Below, in pieces: positions 6,793-42,519 of a stretch of DNA of 42,622 nt. Location: the NCBI GenBank assembly GCA_010906935.1, contig JAAFHC010000017.1:1-42622 (forward strand), in the 5' to 3' direction. The DNA is from Gelidibacter sp. (GTDB lineage Bacteria; Bacteroidota; Bacteroidia; Flavobacteriales; Flavobacteriaceae). The notes below the pieces were generated by a model, which was given only the letters and a program-made list of their open reading frames with translations, was not told where the DNA came from and made no database searches. Numbering within the stretch: the stretch's first letter is position 1; each line of letters opens with the position of its first letter. Position numbers and translations under genes: made by a program.

Positions 6793-6850
6793 TTTGAAGT
6801 TTCAAACTTCAAATTTGAAAATGAAGTTTCAAGTTTCAAGTTTGAAAATT
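6791..6850. repeat. Nested short inverted repeats after fumC
   Basis: The stretch is built from variants of GAAGTTT and AAACTTC, including the perfect GAAGTTT-C-AAACTTC. It runs directly into the TAACTTT array. It could fold into several alternative hairpins. No coding potential is seen. Confidence 0.6.
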
Positions 6851-6951
6851 TAACTTTTAACTTTTAACTTTTAACTTTTAACTTTTAACTTTTAACTTTT
6901 AACTTTTAACTTTTAACTTTTAACTTTTAACTTTTAACTTTTTTTAACTTT
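6851..6951. repeat. Heptamer tandem array (TAACTTT)13 plus one displaced unit
   Basis: Thirteen perfect copies of TAACTTT run from 6851 to 6941, then three extra T, then one more copy (6945-6951). It lies between the convergent fumC and ackA, downstream of both. Arrays of perfect 7-bp units mutate by slippage, so the copy number is likely to vary between strains. Confidence 0.95.
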
Positions 6952-6954
6952 TAA

Positions 6955-6996
6955 TCACAAAAAAAGCATTGAAAATTTTCAATGCTTTTTTTGTGA
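6955..6996. terminator. 42-bp perfect palindrome: bidirectional terminator of fumC and pta-ackA
   Basis: Two 21-bp arms (TCACAAAAAAAGCATTG... and its exact complement) meet with no unpaired spacer. The GC-containing core is flanked by A7/T7 tracts, so it works as an intrinsic terminator in both directions between convergent units. Confidence 0.85.
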
Positions 6997-7010
6997 TTTT
7001 ATTTTTTGAT

Positions 7011-10444: not shown

Positions 10445-11680
10445 ATGACAACATTAATTACCAATATTAAAGAATTGCTACAGGTTGAAAGCGTGCCGAA
10501 AAAAATGGTTTGCGGGGCAGCAATGAAATTTCTACCCACCATTAAAAATGCTTTTTTATTGATTGAAAATGAGGTGATAAAAGATTTTGGCAAGATGGAA
10601 AATTTACCCATTATTCTAGCTGAAAACACCCTTGACGCCAGCGAAAAAATAGTGCTTCCAACCTGGTGCGACAGTCATACGCACATTGTTTATGCCGGAA
10701 ATAGGGAACAAGAATTTATTGATAGAATTCATGGACTTTCTTATGAAGAAATTGCGAATAATGGCGGCGGAATTTTAAATTCAGCCATAAAATTACAACA
10801 AACATCCGAAGAAGATTTATACCAACAATCTGCAAAACGCATTGAAGAAGTGATGAAATTGGGCACTGGTGCCGTTGAAATTAAATCGGGTTACGGATTG
10901 ACAAAGGACGCTGAATTAAAAATGTTGCGTGTTATAAAAAAGTTGAATGACAACTACCCAATTACCATCAAGTCCACTTTTTTGGCCGCTCATGCGCTGC
11001 CTTCAGAATTTAAAACCAACAAAAGTGGTTATTTAGATGTTGTGATTCATGAAATTTTACCGATGGTGGCAGTAGAAAATTTAGCCGAATATATTGATGT
11101 TTTTTGCGAAACTGGCTATTTTTCTGTTGATGATACCGACAGAATCCTTGAAGCCGGTGCAAAATACGGACTGATGCCAAAAATTCATGTAAATCAGTTT
11201 ACGGCAATTGGCGGTGTTCAGGTTGGTGTTAAACACAAAGCGCTTTCTGTTGATCATTTGGAATTGATGCGAGATGAAGATATTGAAGTTTTAAAAAATA
11301 CTGATACTATGCCTGTTGCTTTACCTTCATGTTCCTATTTTTTAAGCATTCCTTATACGCCGGCAAGAAAAATAATTGATGCCGGTTTGCCTTTGGCATT
11401 GGCTACCGATTACAATCCGGGTTCAACACCATCAGGAAATATGAACTTTGTAATTTCTACAGCTTGCATTAAAATGAAAATGACTCCGGAAGAAGCTATA
11501 AATGCAGCAACAATTAATGGCGCTTACGCAATGGGTTTGGAAAAAACCCACGGAAGTATTTGTAAAGGAAAAAAAGCAAATTTTATCATTACCAAAGAAA
11601 TTCCAAGCTACGGGTTTATTCCATACTCATTTGGAAATCAACATATTGATAAGGTGTTTATCGAAGGTAAAGAAATTTAA
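10445..11680 (+). CDS. hutI: Imidazolonepropionase
   Basis: The protein is 411 aa and belongs to the amidohydrolase superfamily. It hydrolyses 4-imidazolone-5-propanoate to N-formimino-L-glutamate in histidine degradation. The metal-binding HxH lies in CDSHTHIVYAGNR (about residues 74-86), followed by GLSYEEIANNGGGI typical of HutI. EIKSGYGLT, HVNQFTAIGG and the late metal Asp in ATDYNPGS are also present. No other hut gene (hutH, hutU, hutG) is in the window, so the pathway must be completed elsewhere. It is convergent with ppk2, and the two coding regions overlap by 4 bp at their stop codons. Confidence 0.95.
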   Translation: MTTLITNIKELLQVESVPKKMVCGAAMKFLPTIKNAFLLIENEVIKDFGKMENLPIILAENTLDASEKIVLPTWCDSHTHIVYAGNREQEFIDRIHGLSYEEIANNGGGILNSAIKLQQTSEEDLYQQSAKRIEEVMKLGTGAVEIKSGYGLTKDAELKMLRVIKKLNDNYPITIKSTFLAAHALPSEFKTNKSGYLDVVIHEILPMVAVENLAEYIDVFCETGYFSVDDTDRILEAGAKYGLMPKIHVNQFTAIGGVQVGVKHKALSVDHLELMRDEDIEVLKNTDTMPVALPSCSYFLSIPYTPARKIIDAGLPLALATDYNPGSTPSGNMNFVISTACIKMKMTPEEAINAATINGAYAMGLEKTHGSICKGKKANFIITKEIPSYGFIPYSFGNQHIDKVFIEGKEI

Positions 11681-12465
11681 ATTTCTCTTTTTTTATCGTA
11701 TGGAATACTACTTAAAATATGGTTAATGGCCACTACCCGAGCATACGTTTTTTTATTCGCTTTTATTATTTTCCAGTCAACAATGCCTTCTTTTGTTTTT
11801 GCAAACATTTTATTTTTATAGTAGGTATAAACATCCCATAATTCTTGGGCCTTTTCATCAACAGGCGTTATTTTCCATTGTTTTAATGGGTCGCCTTTTA
11901 ATTCCTCGAAACGTTTGGCCTGCTCTTTTTTGGAGATTGACATATAAATTTTCACCAAATGAATGCCCGATTCTGTAATCATTCGCTCAAATTCGTTTAC
12001 CTGATTCATGAAAATTTCATATTCATGTTGCGTACAAAAACCGTTTACTGGCGCAACTACTGCTCTATTATACCAACTTCTGTCGAAAAAAACGATTTCA
12101 CCGGCCTTTGGAAATTGAATAACATACCGCTGAAAATACCACTGTGAGCGCTCATCTTCCGTAGGTTTTGGCAAAGCCACTATGCGATAATGCCGAGGAT
12201 TCATCCGTTCGGTTGCACGCCTAATGGCACCACCTTTTCCGGCTACATCCCTTCCTTCGAAAATAATCATGATTCGTTCATTTTCTTCAATGGCCCAGGT
12301 TTGTAATCGGATGAGTTCAACCTGAAGTTTTTTTAATTTATTTTCATATTTAACAAAACGAACAGCTTTCTCTAAATTATAGGGCTCTTTTGAAAATAAA
12401 GCCCTTAAACCCTTATTCGTATTAAGAATCTCAACTTCTTCTGCAGTTAATTTATAGGAGTGCAT
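11677..12465 (-). CDS. ppk2: Polyphosphate kinase 2 family protein (downstream paralog)
   Basis: This 262-aa protein is a single-domain PPK2, a P-loop kinase that moves phosphate between polyphosphate and nucleotides. Walker A is GRDVAGKGG (residues 71-79) and Walker B is FFDRSWYNR (126-134). The lid region ERSQWYFQRY and KQWKITPVDEKAQELW are also family-typical. Its start lies 2 bp after the stop of a second PPK2 gene, so the two are an operon of tandem paralogs that differ clearly in sequence. Family knowledge cannot fix whether this copy prefers NDP (class I) or NMP substrates. It ends convergent to hutI with a 4-bp overlap. Confidence 0.92.
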   Translation of the reverse strand: MHSYKLTAEEVEILNTNKGLRALFSKEPYNLEKAVRFVKYENKLKKLQVELIRLQTWAIEENERIMIIFEGRDVAGKGGAIRRATERMNPRHYRIVALPKPTEDERSQWYFQRYVIQFPKAGEIVFFDRSWYNRAVVAPVNGFCTQHEYEIFMNQVNEFERMITESGIHLVKIYMSISKKEQAKRFEELKGDPLKQWKITPVDEKAQELWDVYTYYKNKMFAKTKEGIVDWKIIKANKKTYARVVAINHILSSIPYDKKREI

Positions 12466-12467
12466 AA

Positions 12468-13325
12468 TTAATCTATTTGTTTGGCTGAACGGTAATAACG
12501 CATCACAATATTTGGATCTGGAAACAATATGGTTGATGCATTTTCTTTTCCTTCATAGTTAAATTGAGACAACACGTATCGGATACTTTCCAAACGCGCC
12601 AATTTTTTATCGTTTGCCTTAACGGTAATCCATGGACTATAGCTGGTGTGGGTTCGGCTATACATTTGTTCTTTATAATGCGTATATTGATCCCAAAGTT
12701 CCTGACTTTTCCGGTCGACCGGACTAAATTTCCAGCGTTTTAGTGGTGTTGCAATGCGCGCATTAAAACGGGTCAATTGCTCTTCTTTTGAAATAGAAAA
12801 CCAAAATTTTATCAAAACCATTCCGTCTTCATACATCATATGTTCAAATTCAGAAACCTGAACCATAAAATTTCGATATTGAGTTTCTGTGCAAAATCCC
12901 ATAACAGGCTCAACAACTGCTCTATTGTACCAACTTCTGTCGAAAAATACAATTTCTCCAGTGTTTGGCATTTCTTTAATATAACGTCTAAAATACCATT
13001 GGCCACGCTCAATTTCAGTAGGTTTGGTCAAAGCAACTACATTCATTGCCCTTGGATTTAAATGTTCTGTAAACCGGCGAATATTCCCTCCTTTTCCAGC
13101 GGCATCCCTTCCTTCAAAAATGATGGCCACCCGCATTTTATTTTTTGCAATCCACTGTTGTAGCTTCACCAATTCAATTTGTAAATTGCGCAGCTCTTCT
13201 TCATAAAACAATCGTTTTGCCACCTTATCAAAAGGAATATTTTTTTCCTTAATAAGTTTTAAAAGTTCTTCGTTTGATGACACTCTTTCAAAATCTTCGA
13301 TGGTCAATTTAGGAGTTTCTTTCAT
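12468..13325 (-). CDS. ppk2: Polyphosphate kinase 2 family protein (upstream paralog)
   Basis: The protein is 285 aa with the same fold as its neighbour: Walker A GRDAAGKGG (72-80), Walker B FFDRSWYNR, RGQWYFRRYI and KRWKFSPVDRKSQELW. It has a longer C-terminal tail (SPWITVKANDKK, then DPNIVMRYYRSA) than the downstream copy, closer to the usual PPK2 length of about 290 aa. It is the first gene of the pair. The upstream intergenic DNA is occupied by a dispersed repeat element rather than a recognisable promoter. The likely role is nucleotide rephosphorylation from polyphosphate, or polyphosphate storage. Two paralogs may split the NMP-to-NDP and NDP-to-NTP steps; that split is inference. Confidence 0.93.
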   Translation of the reverse strand: MKETPKLTIEDFERVSSNEELLKLIKEKNIPFDKVAKRLFYEEELRNLQIELVKLQQWIAKNKMRVAIIFEGRDAAGKGGNIRRFTEHLNPRAMNVVALTKPTEIERGQWYFRRYIKEMPNTGEIVFFDRSWYNRAVVEPVMGFCTETQYRNFMVQVSEFEHMMYEDGMVLIKFWFSISKEEQLTRFNARIATPLKRWKFSPVDRKSQELWDQYTHYKEQMYSRTHTSYSPWITVKANDKKLARLESIRYVLSQFNYEGKENASTILFPDPNIVMRYYRSAKQID

Positions 13326-13330
13326 CTTTT

Positions 13331-13429
13331 TAAATTTTGTTTTTTAGCTGTAACAGTTGCAGCCTGCCTGCCGGCAGGTTCGCCAATAATCATTTCTTTA
13401 AGCATCAAAATTCGATATGTTCGTTTTAC
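13331..13429. repeat. Dispersed intergenic element, copy A (with GC-rich palindromic insert)
   Basis: The sequence from TAAATTTTGTTTTTTAGC to ATGTTCGTTTTA matches copy B at 33468-33549 in order and orientation: about 27/30 bases in the first block, 7/7 in TTCGCCA and 19/22 in the last block. Copy A carries 18 bp containing CCTGCCGGCAGG, a perfect palindrome and by far the most GC-rich spot nearby, where copy B has 2 bp. The element reaches into the last codons of the SafE-like gene. Confidence 0.7.
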
Positions 13430-14153
13430 AATGGTCTATTTTTTCATAGGTCATACAAATTTCTGGATCACTCAATGGTTGCAGTTTTGCATCAGAAGGT
13501 GAAAAATAAGGAATTCCTAGTCCAAGACCACGCAAAATAAATAATAATCCGATGATAATCACAAAAACAGGGATTATTTTTTGAAATTTAGTACGTAAAG
13601 ACACGCTAACAAAATTCCCCAACAATACTGCTGCGGTCATCATTGGAATTGTTCCAACCCCAAATAATGCCATATATAATGCTCCCTGAACAGGATTTCC
13701 AGTTGAAATTGAGCCAATTACAGCAATATAAACCAAGCCACAAGGCAAAAAACCGTTAAAAAAACCTATTGAGAATAAGGCTTTATTTGTTTTTTTATTT
13801 AGATAAATTCCTAGATTGTATTTGACCTTGGCAATAATTTTATACAGCGGTTTTGAAAAATTGTATTTATTAAAAACAGAAACCGGAGTTAGGATGGTTA
13901 GAATCATTATAACGCCCATTAAAATTGATAAACGTTGCTGAAAACCAGCCAAATACAATCCTTTTCCTATAAAACCAAAAAGCAACCCTATGATAGAATA
14001 ACTTAATAATCGACCAAAATGATATAAGAATGTTTGGAAAATTAATGATGTTTTTGACGACCTGTTTACCGGAATAATGAATGCGATTGGCCCGCACATT
14101 CCAATACAGTGAAAACCGCCTGCCAAACCAAAAATAAGCGCAGTCCAAAGCAT
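13398..14153 (-). CDS. SafE/DsbD_2-like membrane protein of the cbb3 oxidase locus
   Basis: The protein is 251 aa with about six hydrophobic segments. It opens with GGFHCIGMCGPI, whose Cys pair (CxxxC) in the first membrane segment is characteristic of the sulfite-exporter TauE/SafE and urease-accessory UreH-like (DsbD_2) family. FNGFLPCGLVY in the second half is the matching repeat motif. It starts 1 bp after ccoH, at the end of ccoG-ccoH-safE. Family members next to ccoG/ccoH are thought to take part in copper or electron supply to the oxidase; that role is inferred from position. The last ~10 codons lie inside dispersed element A, so the C-terminus may have been altered by it. Confidence 0.85.
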   Translation of the reverse strand: MLWTALIFGLAGGFHCIGMCGPIAFIIPVNRSSKTSLIFQTFLYHFGRLLSYSIIGLLFGFIGKGLYLAGFQQRLSILMGVIMILTILTPVSVFNKYNFSKPLYKIIAKVKYNLGIYLNKKTNKALFSIGFFNGFLPCGLVYIAVIGSISTGNPVQGALYMALFGVGTIPMMTAAVLLGNFVSVSLRTKFQKIIPVFVIIIGLLFILRGLGLGIPYFSPSDAKLQPLSDPEICMTYEKIDHCKTNISNFDA

Positions 14154-32105: not shown

Positions 32106-33464
32106 TTAGTCCTTTTTCCAGTTATTTTTAAAATCGCAGGCTTTATAATCGTTGTTTATTTTAATGTAAGTATCCTTAATTTTGTCTTTCGACCACTTTT
32201 CTACAGTTTCTTCCTGTTTTTTCTGCAAGGTTAATTGTTGAATTTTTTCGTAATCTTTGGTGAAATTTGCGGTATGCGCATCGTCTTTGCTTTTTACTAA
32301 AATTATTTTGTGCATTTTAGATTCTCCCCTTACTTCATCATAAAAAGGCAGGGTAATTTCAGCAGTTTTTAAGCTGCTAATTTTATTGTAAAGATTTGGA
32401 TCCATTCTTGTTAAATCAAAACGGGTATCATTTGTTTGCGGATTCAATAACAAGCCGCTATTGTTTTTGGTGTCTTTATCTTCAGAGTATTTTACCACCG
32501 CTTCTTCAAAAGTAATTTCTGCATTAAGTATTTGTTCCCTAATTTTTGCCAATTCATTAAATGACGTTTCTAATTCAGCCTTGCTTATTTTTGGCTGAAT
32601 TAAAATATGTCGAACATCGCGTTCTTGGCCTTTAATTTTTTCAACTTGAATAATATGAAATCCAAATCCCGATTCAAAAGGTTCTGAAATTTCGCCTTCA
32701 TCCAAACTAAAAGCCACTTCTTTAAACTCTTTTATAAAACCGCTTTCTCTTGTAATAGTATACAATCCTGCTGCTCCGGGTCCAGTTCCTGAAACTGCTG
32801 GATCATCAGAATTAATGATTGCTTTCAATCTAAAGCTGAAACCGCTTTCAATTTCTTTTTTTATTTCATTCAATTTATCAATCACCCTGTTGGTTTCTTC
32901 TTCGGAAGGCTTAATATATTTCACAATTTGAGCCAATTCAATTTCAGCACTAAATTCTGGCAAATTGCCGTCTTTTTCAAGATTTTTAAAATAAGTTCTC
33001 ACCTCTTCTGGCGTCACATCAATTTTTTCGGTAATACTCGCTCTTTCTTTTTGAATAAGCAATTGTTCCTTTTGGATTTCGTACAATTCTTTCCTTAAAT
33101 CTTCTTCATCATTAAATCCATACATTTTCACCACTTTTTCCATGCTTCCAAGTTGTTGTGTGAAGTAAGAAATATTGCGTTCAACCTCAGTATTTATTTC
33201 AACATCAGAAACCACCATACTGTCAATTACTGCATGATGTGCAATCAGTTTCTGAGTCATAATTTCTTCCAATATTTCACAATCGGTAATGTCTAATTTG
33301 CCTTCAATACGCTGTTGTAATTCTTTTTTAAATTTTTCAATATCAGAATCAAGCACAATGTTTTTGCCAACTACCACAGCTACGCCATCTAATTTTATTC
33401 TGTCCTGTGCATTTATTCCCGTAATCAATAACAGTAATGCTATTACAATTGTATTTTGTTTCAT
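32106..33464 (-). CDS. surA: SurA-like periplasmic peptidyl-prolyl isomerase
   Basis: The protein is 452 aa with a signal peptide (MKQNTIVIALLLLITGINAQ). A SurA N-terminal chaperone region follows (about 25-165, DGVAVVVGKNIVLDSDIE). Two parvulin domains come next: about 170-275 (LAQIVKYIKPSEEE, ending GFGFHIIQVE) and about 285-395 (RHILIQPKISKAE). SurA helps outer-membrane proteins fold. It lies between a second, broken SurA-like lipoprotein gene upstream and moxR downstream. The upstream gap is filled by dispersed element B instead of a clear promoter. Confidence 0.93.
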   Translation of the reverse strand: MKQNTIVIALLLLITGINAQDRIKLDGVAVVVGKNIVLDSDIEKFKKELQQRIEGKLDITDCEILEEIMTQKLIAHHAVIDSMVVSDVEINTEVERNISYFTQQLGSMEKVVKMYGFNDEEDLRKELYEIQKEQLLIQKERASITEKIDVTPEEVRTYFKNLEKDGNLPEFSAEIELAQIVKYIKPSEEETNRVIDKLNEIKKEIESGFSFRLKAIINSDDPAVSGTGPGAAGLYTITRESGFIKEFKEVAFSLDEGEISEPFESGFGFHIIQVEKIKGQERDVRHILIQPKISKAELETSFNELAKIREQILNAEITFEEAVVKYSEDKDTKNNSGLLLNPQTNDTRFDLTRMDPNLYNKISSLKTAEITLPFYDEVRGESKMHKIILVKSKDDAHTANFTKDYEKIQQLTLQKKQEETVEKWSKDKIKDTYIKINNDYKACDFKNNWKKD

Positions 33465-33467
33465 TTG

Positions 33468-33549
33468 TTTAAATTTTATTTTTTAGCGGGAACAGTTGCT
33501 GTTCGCCATTTATTATTCGTTTATATGTCAAAATTTGAAATGCTCGTTT
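33468..33549. repeat. Dispersed intergenic element, copy B
   Basis: This matches copy A (13331-13429) in the same order and in the same orientation relative to the genes: it lies just upstream of a minus-strand start codon (surA here, ppk2 there). It lacks the GC-rich palindromic insert of copy A and instead contains GAACAG-CAA-CTGTTC when read on the minus strand. A 27-codon frame crosses it, but the corresponding frame in copy A is not preserved to a stop, so coding is unlikely. Confidence 0.7.
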
Positions 33550-33553
33550 CATG

Positions 33554-33868
33554 CTAATATATTTCAAATTGTTGTTTTTTTGTTGCATCTTTAATTAATG
33601 TTTCTTCAATATTTCTTAATAATAATAATTTTCGTTGGTGTAAAATCATTTGCTTAATTGCAGGTGTAATATAGCTTTTTGGCGCAATTTCATTACTTTG
33701 TAAAACCTTTTTAATAGTGACCAAATATAAGCTTAATGAATCTTCTTTTTGAATAAAATGATCTTTTTTTAACAACAGCTGTTTGTCTTCTGTTTTTAAA
33801 ACTGGAATCTCATTTATTAAATCGCTATACTTAATCCAAATTGAATCATTTAAATGATGTGAATTCAT
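33554..33868 (-). pseudogene. C-terminal part of a SurA-like lipoprotein, cut off by an in-frame stop
   Basis: This 104-aa reading frame (LNDSIWIKYSDLINEIP, ending KQQFEIY) looks like the C-terminal chaperone segment of the flavobacterial PPIase lipoprotein. It is in the same frame as the ORF ending at 33881; only a TAA and four further codons separate them. Its apparent ATG is simply the first Met after that stop. It might be translated on its own by reinitiation, but it has no signal peptide and would stay in the cytoplasm. Confidence 0.75.
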
Positions 33869-41826: not shown

Positions 41827-42281
41827 AAATACTTCGGCATTTCGTTTTTAATCTCCATTGTTTTTTGAGCAATCGACTTTTTTATGCGTTCGTTAGAATT
41901 TTGTTGGTCTTCCAAAGTCATCGTTACATTAGTACGCATCACAATTTGTCTTGCAATTTCTTGTGCTCTTTGTTCTATCATTTCCTCCAAACTATTATGT
42001 TTAGAGACAAAACCATATACCAATTTCATATCCAACCCACGTGCAGTTTCGCTTAATGAATTTAATGTAATTGTTCCATTGGCTTCCCTTTCCTCAATTT
42101 CCTTGGTACTTTGGGCAGTAATATTTAAACGATTACCCAACTGTCTTAATGACATTTTGAGTGTTGTACGAATGGTATGTATCCACCCATTTGGAGGTAT
42201 GATTATTGTTCCTAACTCTTTAAATGGAGCTAATTTTCGCTCTGTTTGGTCTAATAATAATAATCTATTTGCATTTTTCAT
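41817..42281 (-). CDS. Xre-type HTH protein, mobile mystery protein A
   Basis: The 154-aa protein has an HTH near residues 38-80 (KMSLRQLGNRLNITAQSTKEIEERE) and GWIHTIRTTL just before it, as in mobile mystery protein A. A helix-rich C-terminal half contains EEMIEQRAQEIARQIV and ends near MPKYLWD. The family is named for its repeated occurrence on mobile DNA with a Fic protein, which is exactly the arrangement here. It probably represses its own promoter, which is covered by three matching palindromes, and may bind and control the Fic protein in a toxin-antitoxin-like manner; this is inference. The ATG at 42281 directly abuts the first palindrome. Confidence 0.9.
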   Translation of the reverse strand: MKNANRLLLLDQTERKLAPFKELGTIIIPPNGWIHTIRTTLKMSLRQLGNRLNITAQSTKEIEEREANGTITLNSLSETARGLDMKLVYGFVSKHNSLEEMIEQRAQEIARQIVMRTNVTMTLEDQQNSNERIKKSIAQKTMEIKNEMPKYLWD

Positions 42282-42295
42282 AAGGGTATAGCCTT
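42282..42295. promoter_or_regulatory. Operator 1 of the Xre-Fic pair
   Basis: AAGGGTATAGCCTT, an imperfect copy of AAGGTTATAACCTT, lies between the predicted transcription start and the ATG. Confidence 0.65.
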
Positions 42296-42307
42296 AAAAT
42301 TATATCA

Positions 42308-42338
42308 CAAATATAAGGTTATAACCTTAAAAAACAAA
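42308..42338 (-). promoter_or_regulatory. Promoter of the Xre-Fic pair
   Basis: On the minus strand TTTG (42335-42338), 19 bp, TATATTTG (42308-42315) is a full Bacteroidota promoter. The spacer contains almost all of operator 2, so binding there must block RNA polymerase. The start of transcription would be near 42302, giving a leader of about 20 nt. Confidence 0.7.
42315..42328. promoter_or_regulatory. Operator 2 of the Xre-Fic pair
   Basis: AAGGTTATAACCTT is a perfect 14-bp palindrome, the best of the three copies. It sits in the -33/-7 spacer, 33 bp from operator 1 and 33 bp from operator 3. Confidence 0.75.
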
Positions 42339-42347
42339 TTTTATTTT

Positions 42348-42361
42348 AAGGCTATAACCTT
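42348..42361. promoter_or_regulatory. Operator 3 of the Xre-Fic pair
   Basis: AAGGCTATAACCTT has one mismatch to a perfect palindrome and lies upstream of the -33 box, 33 bp from operator 2. Confidence 0.7.
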
Positions 42362-42519
42362 AAAATACTAAAATACATTACTAACTATGCAACTTCCTCA
42401 AAATTTGATGAAAAAGCCAATATCTAAAAATTTATGGTTTGTAAATTGCAATTAATTAAGAATAATTATAATAACTGACTGTTTTTAAGTAAATTGCAGT
42501 ACAAATATTGTTTAACAAA
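42362..42519. other. AT-rich non-coding stretch inside the island
   Basis: No convincing gene is seen. The only plus-strand frame with an ATG (42387) is 22 codons long. The stretch holds poly-A/T-rich DNA between the operator array and the arm-like repeats. Confidence 0.5.

Follow-up and report, generated by a model that had tools for sequence, protein, structure and literature searches.

The window, by which we mean the whole 42,622-nucleotide stretch of Gelidibacter sp. DNA that was analysed, carries two intergenic look-alikes (copies A and B, Table 1) that are copies of a family of dispersed mobile DNA elements of about 90 bases, which insert and in doing so duplicate the start codon of the gene behind them. 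We hold it as very probable that the element is mobile, that its target is an ATGAA start codon and that this codon is rebuilt on insertion. An earlier reading of the window from its letters alone (the sequence-only reading) had reported the two stretches, and a check of both sequences found them at the places given; their location on start codons and the duplication of the codon are a point beyond that reader's view.

The sequence-only reading had proposed a whole-genome search with both copies and had named the absence of further copies as what would refute it. In the window's genome (G000; 3.32 Mb in 296 contigs) copy A as a query found 30 places at E≤7e-4 and copy B about 40 places at E<1e-8, for a family total of about 50 copies, so dozens of further copies exist and the refuting condition is clearly not met. 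A pattern for the right end of the element (AAATAAAATTTAAACAGATGAAA, 23 bases, up to three mismatches allowed) occurred at 51 places in this genome and its reversed form, used as a control, at none; in three sister genomes we counted at least 116, 69 and 41 right ends. A chance resemblance in A/T-rich intergenic DNA would be in keeping with the composition of the region and with the many differences between the two window copies, but this explanation is refuted by dozens of copies, whose identity to the query consensus reaches 100%, against a control of zero, and by the empty orthologous sites described below. The similarity is thus real, being far above chance both in the genome searches and in the pattern control.

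Reading all copies jointly, in gene orientation, set the limits of the element, which ranges from about 85 to 115 bp and has the short form ATGAA(A)CGAGCATAACAAATTTTGATACACAAAGGAATGATTAATGGCGAACAGCATCTGTTACCGCTAAAAAATAAAATTTAAACAG followed by ATGAA(A). Two earlier descriptions had to be amended here. The copies had been said to lie always upstream of a minus-strand start; their orientation does follow the downstream gene, but they occupy both strands (22 forward and 29 reverse among the right-end matches in G000). They had also been said to touch the leader of the downstream gene, which they do adjoin, but the limits in Table 1 take in its start codon as well.

Table 1. Location of the two element copies, their parts and their neighbouring genes (window positions unless a locus is named)
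Feature	Position	Strand	Basis or remark
Copy A, whole element	13320..13429	minus	genome copies and junctions; empty site in sister species
Copy A, right-end ATGAAA (start and second codon of PPK2 gene)	13320..13325	minus	sequence, ORF list, empty sites
Copy A, left-end repeat, ATGAAA decayed to GTAAAA	13424..13429	minus	comparison with family consensus
Copy A, optional palindromic insert CCTGCCTGCCGGCAGG, between stem P1 and guide position	13363..13378	.	sequence; presence/absence at orthologous site
Copy A, guide position, CAACTG, right-end pairing partly lost	13354..13359	minus	alignment with guide-covarying copies
Gene downstream of copy A: polyphosphate kinase 2 (PPK2)	12468..13325	minus	Pfam PF03976, E 1.6e-93
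Gene upstream of copy A: DsbD_2/SafE-like membrane protein	13398..14153	minus	Pfam PF13386
Copy B, whole element	33459..33552	minus	genome copies and junctions; empty site in 17 relatives
Copy B, right-end ATGAAA (start of SurA-like foldase gene)	33459..33464	minus	ORF list, empty sites
Copy B, left-end ATGAAA (former start codon)	33547..33552	minus	flank ..TATATTAGC then ATGAAA in empty relatives
Gene downstream of copy B: PPIC-type (SurA-like) foldase	32106..33464	minus	Pfam PF00639
Gene upstream of copy B, function unknown	33554..33868	minus	ends one base before element
Palindrome-interrupted copies	L023 near 1557, L025 near 1562, L029 near 1564		contigs C152, C121, C46

We conclude that the element is an insertion duplicating the start codon because sister species show clean empty sites, with a single ATG, for both window copies. 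At the copy B site the element was present in G000, G002, G015 and G029, and in two of the relatives without it (G003 and G005) the flank ..GAAATATATTAGC is directly joined to ATGAAA. The PPK2 start occupied by copy A in G000 is likewise occupied in G001, G005 and G009, and is empty in G021, G002, G026, G003, G023, G029, G015, G014 and more distant species. One further genome, G034, carries a member of a different subfamily (..GTACCAAT..) at this PPK2 start, so two independent insertions seem to have struck the same ppk2 start codon. Further pairs of empty and occupied sites were found at other genes (mnmA and others). With many copies, unrelated neighbouring genes and empty versus occupied orthologous sites, the short mobile repeat that the sequence-only reading had offered as one of its two interpretations is borne out. 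In a tree of PPK2 and its neighbour, the empty G021 is the sister of the occupied G009 and both share the codons ATGATA, which suggests a precise loss of the element at the G021 site (L319, versus the occupied L318 of G009), although recombination is possible and the node joining G021/G009 to G005/G001 is weak. On its other side, copy A now contains the stop codon of the DsbD_2/SafE-like gene. The PPK2 gene downstream of copy A is one of two adjacent PPK2 genes on the minus strand (window 11677-13325), each with a match to PF03976 and the pair about 71% identical across 262 bp.

Among non-tandem copies the left hexamer was ATGAAA in 104/129 and the right hexamer in 122/129, the latter figure being biased, as part of the collection was gathered with the right-end pattern. 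Three copies with a left end ATGAAA have right ends ATGAAT or ATGAAC (L130, whose empty partner is L221; L286; and L291), and therefore only the five bases ATGAA matter. Start codons are preferred: the right end opens a real gene in 79 of 100 non-tandem copies, whereas 136 of 301 (45%) non-genic ATGAAA sites in the background are gene starts (Fisher p 2e-9). A start codon is not the universal target, since a triple tandem copy on contig C96 lies on the last codons of a gene (..LLMK, then stop). Between 51 and 65 of 228 copies belong to head-to-tail arrays that share one ATGAAA between units, the longest array noted having five units in a row (L268). Normally the second ATGAAA of the element supplies the first two codons of the next gene. 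Judged by their N-terminal sequences, the target genes include lipB, dapA, lpxD, ddl and purN. Start codons are about the last place where a mobile element would be expected to survive; this one lives there by duplicating the codon, and its numbers have risen to between 50 and more than 100 per genome, with copies also before genes that look essential. We also considered a conserved leader peptide read from the left-end ATG and rejected it, since its length varies widely, 4, 14 and 27 codons all being large classes.

Divergent relatives gave the plan of the element as ATGAAACG, a 5' arm of a stem (P1), an A/T-rich stretch, ACACAAGGGAATGATTAT, the P1 3' arm followed by GAGTTCCATCTGAC, an A-rich linker and AAACAGATGAA. 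The P1 arms vary between genera and pair within each genus, as in Pedobacter (GCCATGATTT/AAATCATGGC), a Prevotellaceae genome (ACACGA/TCGTGT) and Marinifilum (ATGAATTT/AAATTCAT). RNAalifold returned no consensus structure for the Lutibacter copies, and the structure was therefore tested by arm swapping between genera: when 3' arms were swapped among 11 lineages, 1 of 200000 permutations attained the total stem length observed. The loop of P1, at 30 nt or more, is long and also conserved, and Lutibacter copies have additional sequence between the hairpin and a second paired part, the guide.

This guide, internal TTCCATCTG, is complementary to the right-end junction CAGATGAA and covaries with it, the variable part of the guide following the three bases before the start codon. 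CATCTG occurs with CAG in 90 copies, CATATG with CAT in L080, L119, L166 and the L263 subfamily, and CATTTG with CAA in L081 and in a second element family; a further 68 copies have CAGCTG with CAG, in which the covarying part is kept and one base of ATG is mismatched. In tight families TTCCAT is also able to pair with the left-end ATGAA, extending P1 (GAAACGCCC/GGGCGTTCC). Copies A and B of the window are old, and the guide pairing is partly lost in both. The second element family just mentioned (ATGAAACGCCTA..GCGTTCCATTTGAC..CAAATGAAA) has the same plan and lies in tandem with the first at L266, L267, L269, L273 and L277 (G002).

A guide complementary to the start codon and covarying with the bases before it could also belong to a cis-regulatory RNA leader, in which an anti-start (TTCCAUCUG) would pair either with the AUGAA upstream or with CAGAUGAA of the gene and so switch translation, the copies having spread because they are useful. 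The ability of the guide sequence to pair with the left-end ATGAA as well, and the location of copies at gene starts, would suit such a leader, but sister species have these genes without the element, its targets are unrelated to one another, some copies lie away from start codons, the frame opened by the left-end ATG is not conserved and there is no Rfam match; we regard this explanation as improbable. A search of Rfam release 15 (4227 families) with 8 loci carrying divergent copies found no match to the element at E≤5, the only two matches being chance ones off the elements. The other interpretation in the sequence-only reading, an mRNA leader structure, is not excluded as a by-product, because transcription of the leader must include the element, but in sister species the leaders of these genes lack it.

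Read on the strand opposite the gene, the element runs from TTCAT (the target) and CTG through an A/T-rich linker, the guide CAGATGGAA and the hairpin P1 to CGT and a second TTCAT, with the guide immediately 5' of P1 and able to pair with either TTCAT end. Y1 enzymes of the IS200/605 and REP type act on substrates in which a guide 5' of the hairpin foot pairs with the sequence at the cleavage point (PMC6006769), and the guide-hairpin layout of the opposite strand resembles this description, the long loop and the additional Lutibacter sequence apart; we propose an HUH enzyme. In our best account a non-autonomous element inserts in one fixed orientation at ATGAA, mostly a start codon, and leaves ATGAA-element-ATGAA-rest of gene. 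The original start codon and the signals before it are moved about 90 bp upstream, and the new start codon, behind the element's own A-rich leader, fronts an intact coding sequence. The movement may occur by single-strand transposition in trans, carried out by an HUH/Y1 enzyme of IS200/605 or REP type, and the internal guide would select ATGAA by base pairing, as IS200/605-type guides do. We lean, by no great degree, towards this statement as a whole, namely a non-autonomous start-codon element that chooses ATGAA by base pairing and is moved in trans by an HUH/Y1 enzyme. Its mobility, target, orientation, start-codon duplication and internal base pairing were demonstrated by the comparisons above; the HUH step is inferred, and taken alone remains tentative.

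Y1 genes were detected in 14 of the 16 Lutibacter genomes with young copies versus 4 of the 21 others (p 5e-5), the young-copy classes having been assigned by the analyst from copy searches and Y1 detection. This association is confounded by phylogeny, the young-copy carriers being largely one clade. No Y1 gene with the element's ends was present among the Y1 loci examined, two carriers had no detected Y1 gene (G027, an incomplete genome, and G443), and searches for candidates did not find the mobilising enzyme. The IS200-type Y1 transposases examined were set aside as mobilisers, as their ends do not match and they have palindromes of their own, and RAYT was set aside since RAYT genes have their own repeats. 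The RAYT-type genes seen in Lutibacter (L243, L249, L255, L258) are accompanied by CTTCGAAGTCTCCCGACTTCGAAG and others by GCACGGATTGCAAATCCGCGC, not by this element. A reverse transcriptase acting in trans showed no association (6/16 vs 9/21), and its gene is absent from G009, G014, G034, G003, G005 and others. A longer, autonomous copy was sought in G026, where only two left and two right ends were unpaired within 130 bp; inspection traced them to variant copies, to a neighbouring tandem unit or to a stray right end that follows a gene.

The presence of ATGAA at both ends is compatible with target duplication and with a conserved right end. The same start-codon-targeting element might accordingly be moved by another enzyme, either a site-specific recombinase with an ATGAA(A) crossover core and a circular form, or a transposase duplicating a 5-6 bp target, and the internal pairing would then serve another step. 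ATGAA is identical at both ends and one copy of it is common to tandem units, as for a crossover core or a duplication; the G009 ppk2 copy has ATAAT at its left end and ATGAT at its right, as if an imperfect target had been duplicated; and the lack of a Y1 gene with matching ends points the same way. Against this, neither terminal inverted repeats nor symmetric recombinase sites were seen by eye (the flanks of ATGAA, which bear on the integron/tyrosine-recombinase question, were judged by eye only and are not inverted repeats of each other), and such mechanisms leave the covariation of guide and junction unexplained. We consider another enzyme a possibility to be kept in mind, if a rather doubtful one. 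A broader statement, that minimal elements of about 90 bp with their own ATGAA guide occur phylum-wide, rebuild the codon, have as targets genes that are unrelated and often essential, and depend for their movement on an unrecognised enzyme system, is offered speculatively.

Among known systems, IS200/IS605 elements share with this one the lack of terminal inverted repeats, a fixed orientation and insertion beside a short fixed target (a feature found here). They also have a hairpin whose foot is preceded on its 5' side by a guide pairing with the cleavage site (PMC6006769); a layout of this kind, with covariation, is present on the non-gene strand of the element, although the loop is atypically long and, in Lutibacter, guide and hairpin are not adjacent. 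Unlike them, the copies described here have no transposase gene, a single main hairpin whose long conserved loop sets it apart from the compact hairpins of IS200/605 and REP, ATGAA at both ends, and no Y1 gene found with their ends. IS200/605 elements are not known to duplicate their targets, and the repeated ATGAA seen here fits either a duplication or a conserved right end. The element works most like a non-autonomous IS200/605-type element, and membership is not claimed because no Y1 transposase with the same ends was found. With REP/REPIN sequences and their RAYT (TnpA-REP) it has in common short length, many intergenic copies, hairpins, a single-hairpin unit and probable movement in trans, whereas REPs are palindromes of 20-65 nt with a GTAG/GTGG-type guide and the element is about 90 nt and inserts at ATGAA; membership is not met, the repeats beside the RAYT genes here being different sequences. 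MITEs (DDE-type) are also small, non-autonomous and multi-copy with short direct end repeats, but the direct repeat of a MITE is its variable target and here it is fixed (ATGAA), and the terminal inverted repeats of MITEs are missing, as the ends ATGAAACGAGC.. and ..AAACAGATGAAA are not inverted repeats. HEARO and IsrB-IscB (omega RNA) elements insert next to ATGA/GTGA, often just before start codons, and carry a structured RNA; in contrast to HEARO, the element has no nuclease gene, measures only about 90 nt and has ATGAA on both sides. The Rfam library searched above is one that we expect to include the HEARO model. The searchable literature held no description of a start-codon-inserting repeat of this kind, with subscription papers and ISfinder outside our scope, so that an earlier description is not excluded.

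The family is found across the phylum Bacteroidota, and some Lutibacter genomes contain from 50 to more than 100 copies. Matches at E≤0.001 occurred in 33 of the 60 genomes searched, 31 of the 33 belonging to the window's genus, and a strict two-ended pattern identified true members in four other genomes among 396 Bacteroidota genomes scanned (control, 0); matches to this pattern in G139, G062 and G329 look like chance. Members were also found in Marinifilum, Labilibacter, Pedobacter, Flavobacterium jejuense and a Prevotellaceae genome. The relatives in Marinifilum, Labilibacter, Pedobacter, Prevotellaceae and Mu-like phage contigs differ in sequence, have covarying stems and also lie at gene starts. 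In viral contigs the right-end pattern found nothing and the two-ended pattern gave 39 matches, two of them true copies (L395:8771-8866 and L367:185-281), each before an open reading frame; the others are without a guide and look like chance, most lying within coding frames. The gene order of the contigs bearing L367 and L395 looks Mu-like, and such contigs are a possible route between hosts. The plasmid records searched had no match to the element.

The sequence-only reading had noted 18 bp in copy A where copy B has 2 bp, as if a second, smaller element had entered the first. The difference is real and is due to the palindromic insert of Table 1; a separate search for CCTGCCGGCAGG, which that reading had also proposed, found a single occurrence in the window, inside copy A. 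At the ppk2 site the G000 and G001 copies have the palindrome and the G005 and G009 copies lack it, and unrelated palindromes stand at the same internal place in HGW-Bacteroidetes-3 (TCCCGAATTTTCGGGA) and Marinifilum (CCTGAAAGCTTTCGGG). About 25 loci in G000 have such palindromes, of which roughly 15 lie within elements and 10 stand alone. The CCTGCCGGCAGG palindrome is an optional hairpin, gained and lost within a copy, and these observations support the nesting that had been supposed. A second, smaller element inside the first explains them well; the alternative is that replication slippage in the hairpin adds and removes it. Three G000 copies (Table 1) are broken inside the palindrome by a sequence beginning CAGCTACCGTGTACCCACA, each near a contig end; the interrupting sequence is probably an insertion sequence targeting the palindrome.

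Through this element the 5' leaders of many genes were rewritten at once, and many 5' regions in carrier genomes are element-derived. Bacteroidota rely little on Shine-Dalgarno sequences, and the absence of the element from the same genes in close relatives offers a natural experiment on translation initiation in this phylum. If the internal guide sets the target, a few base changes should shift the insertion site, with a possible use in genome engineering. Elsewhere in the window we noted a tandem AACTTTT array adjoining a perfect palindrome, AATCACAAAAAAAGCATTGAAAATTTTCAATGCTTTTTTTGTGATT (6824-6998), and a pair of adjacent 41-nt inverted-repeat arms, 76% complementary and rich in TAAGG/CCTTA (42281-42362).
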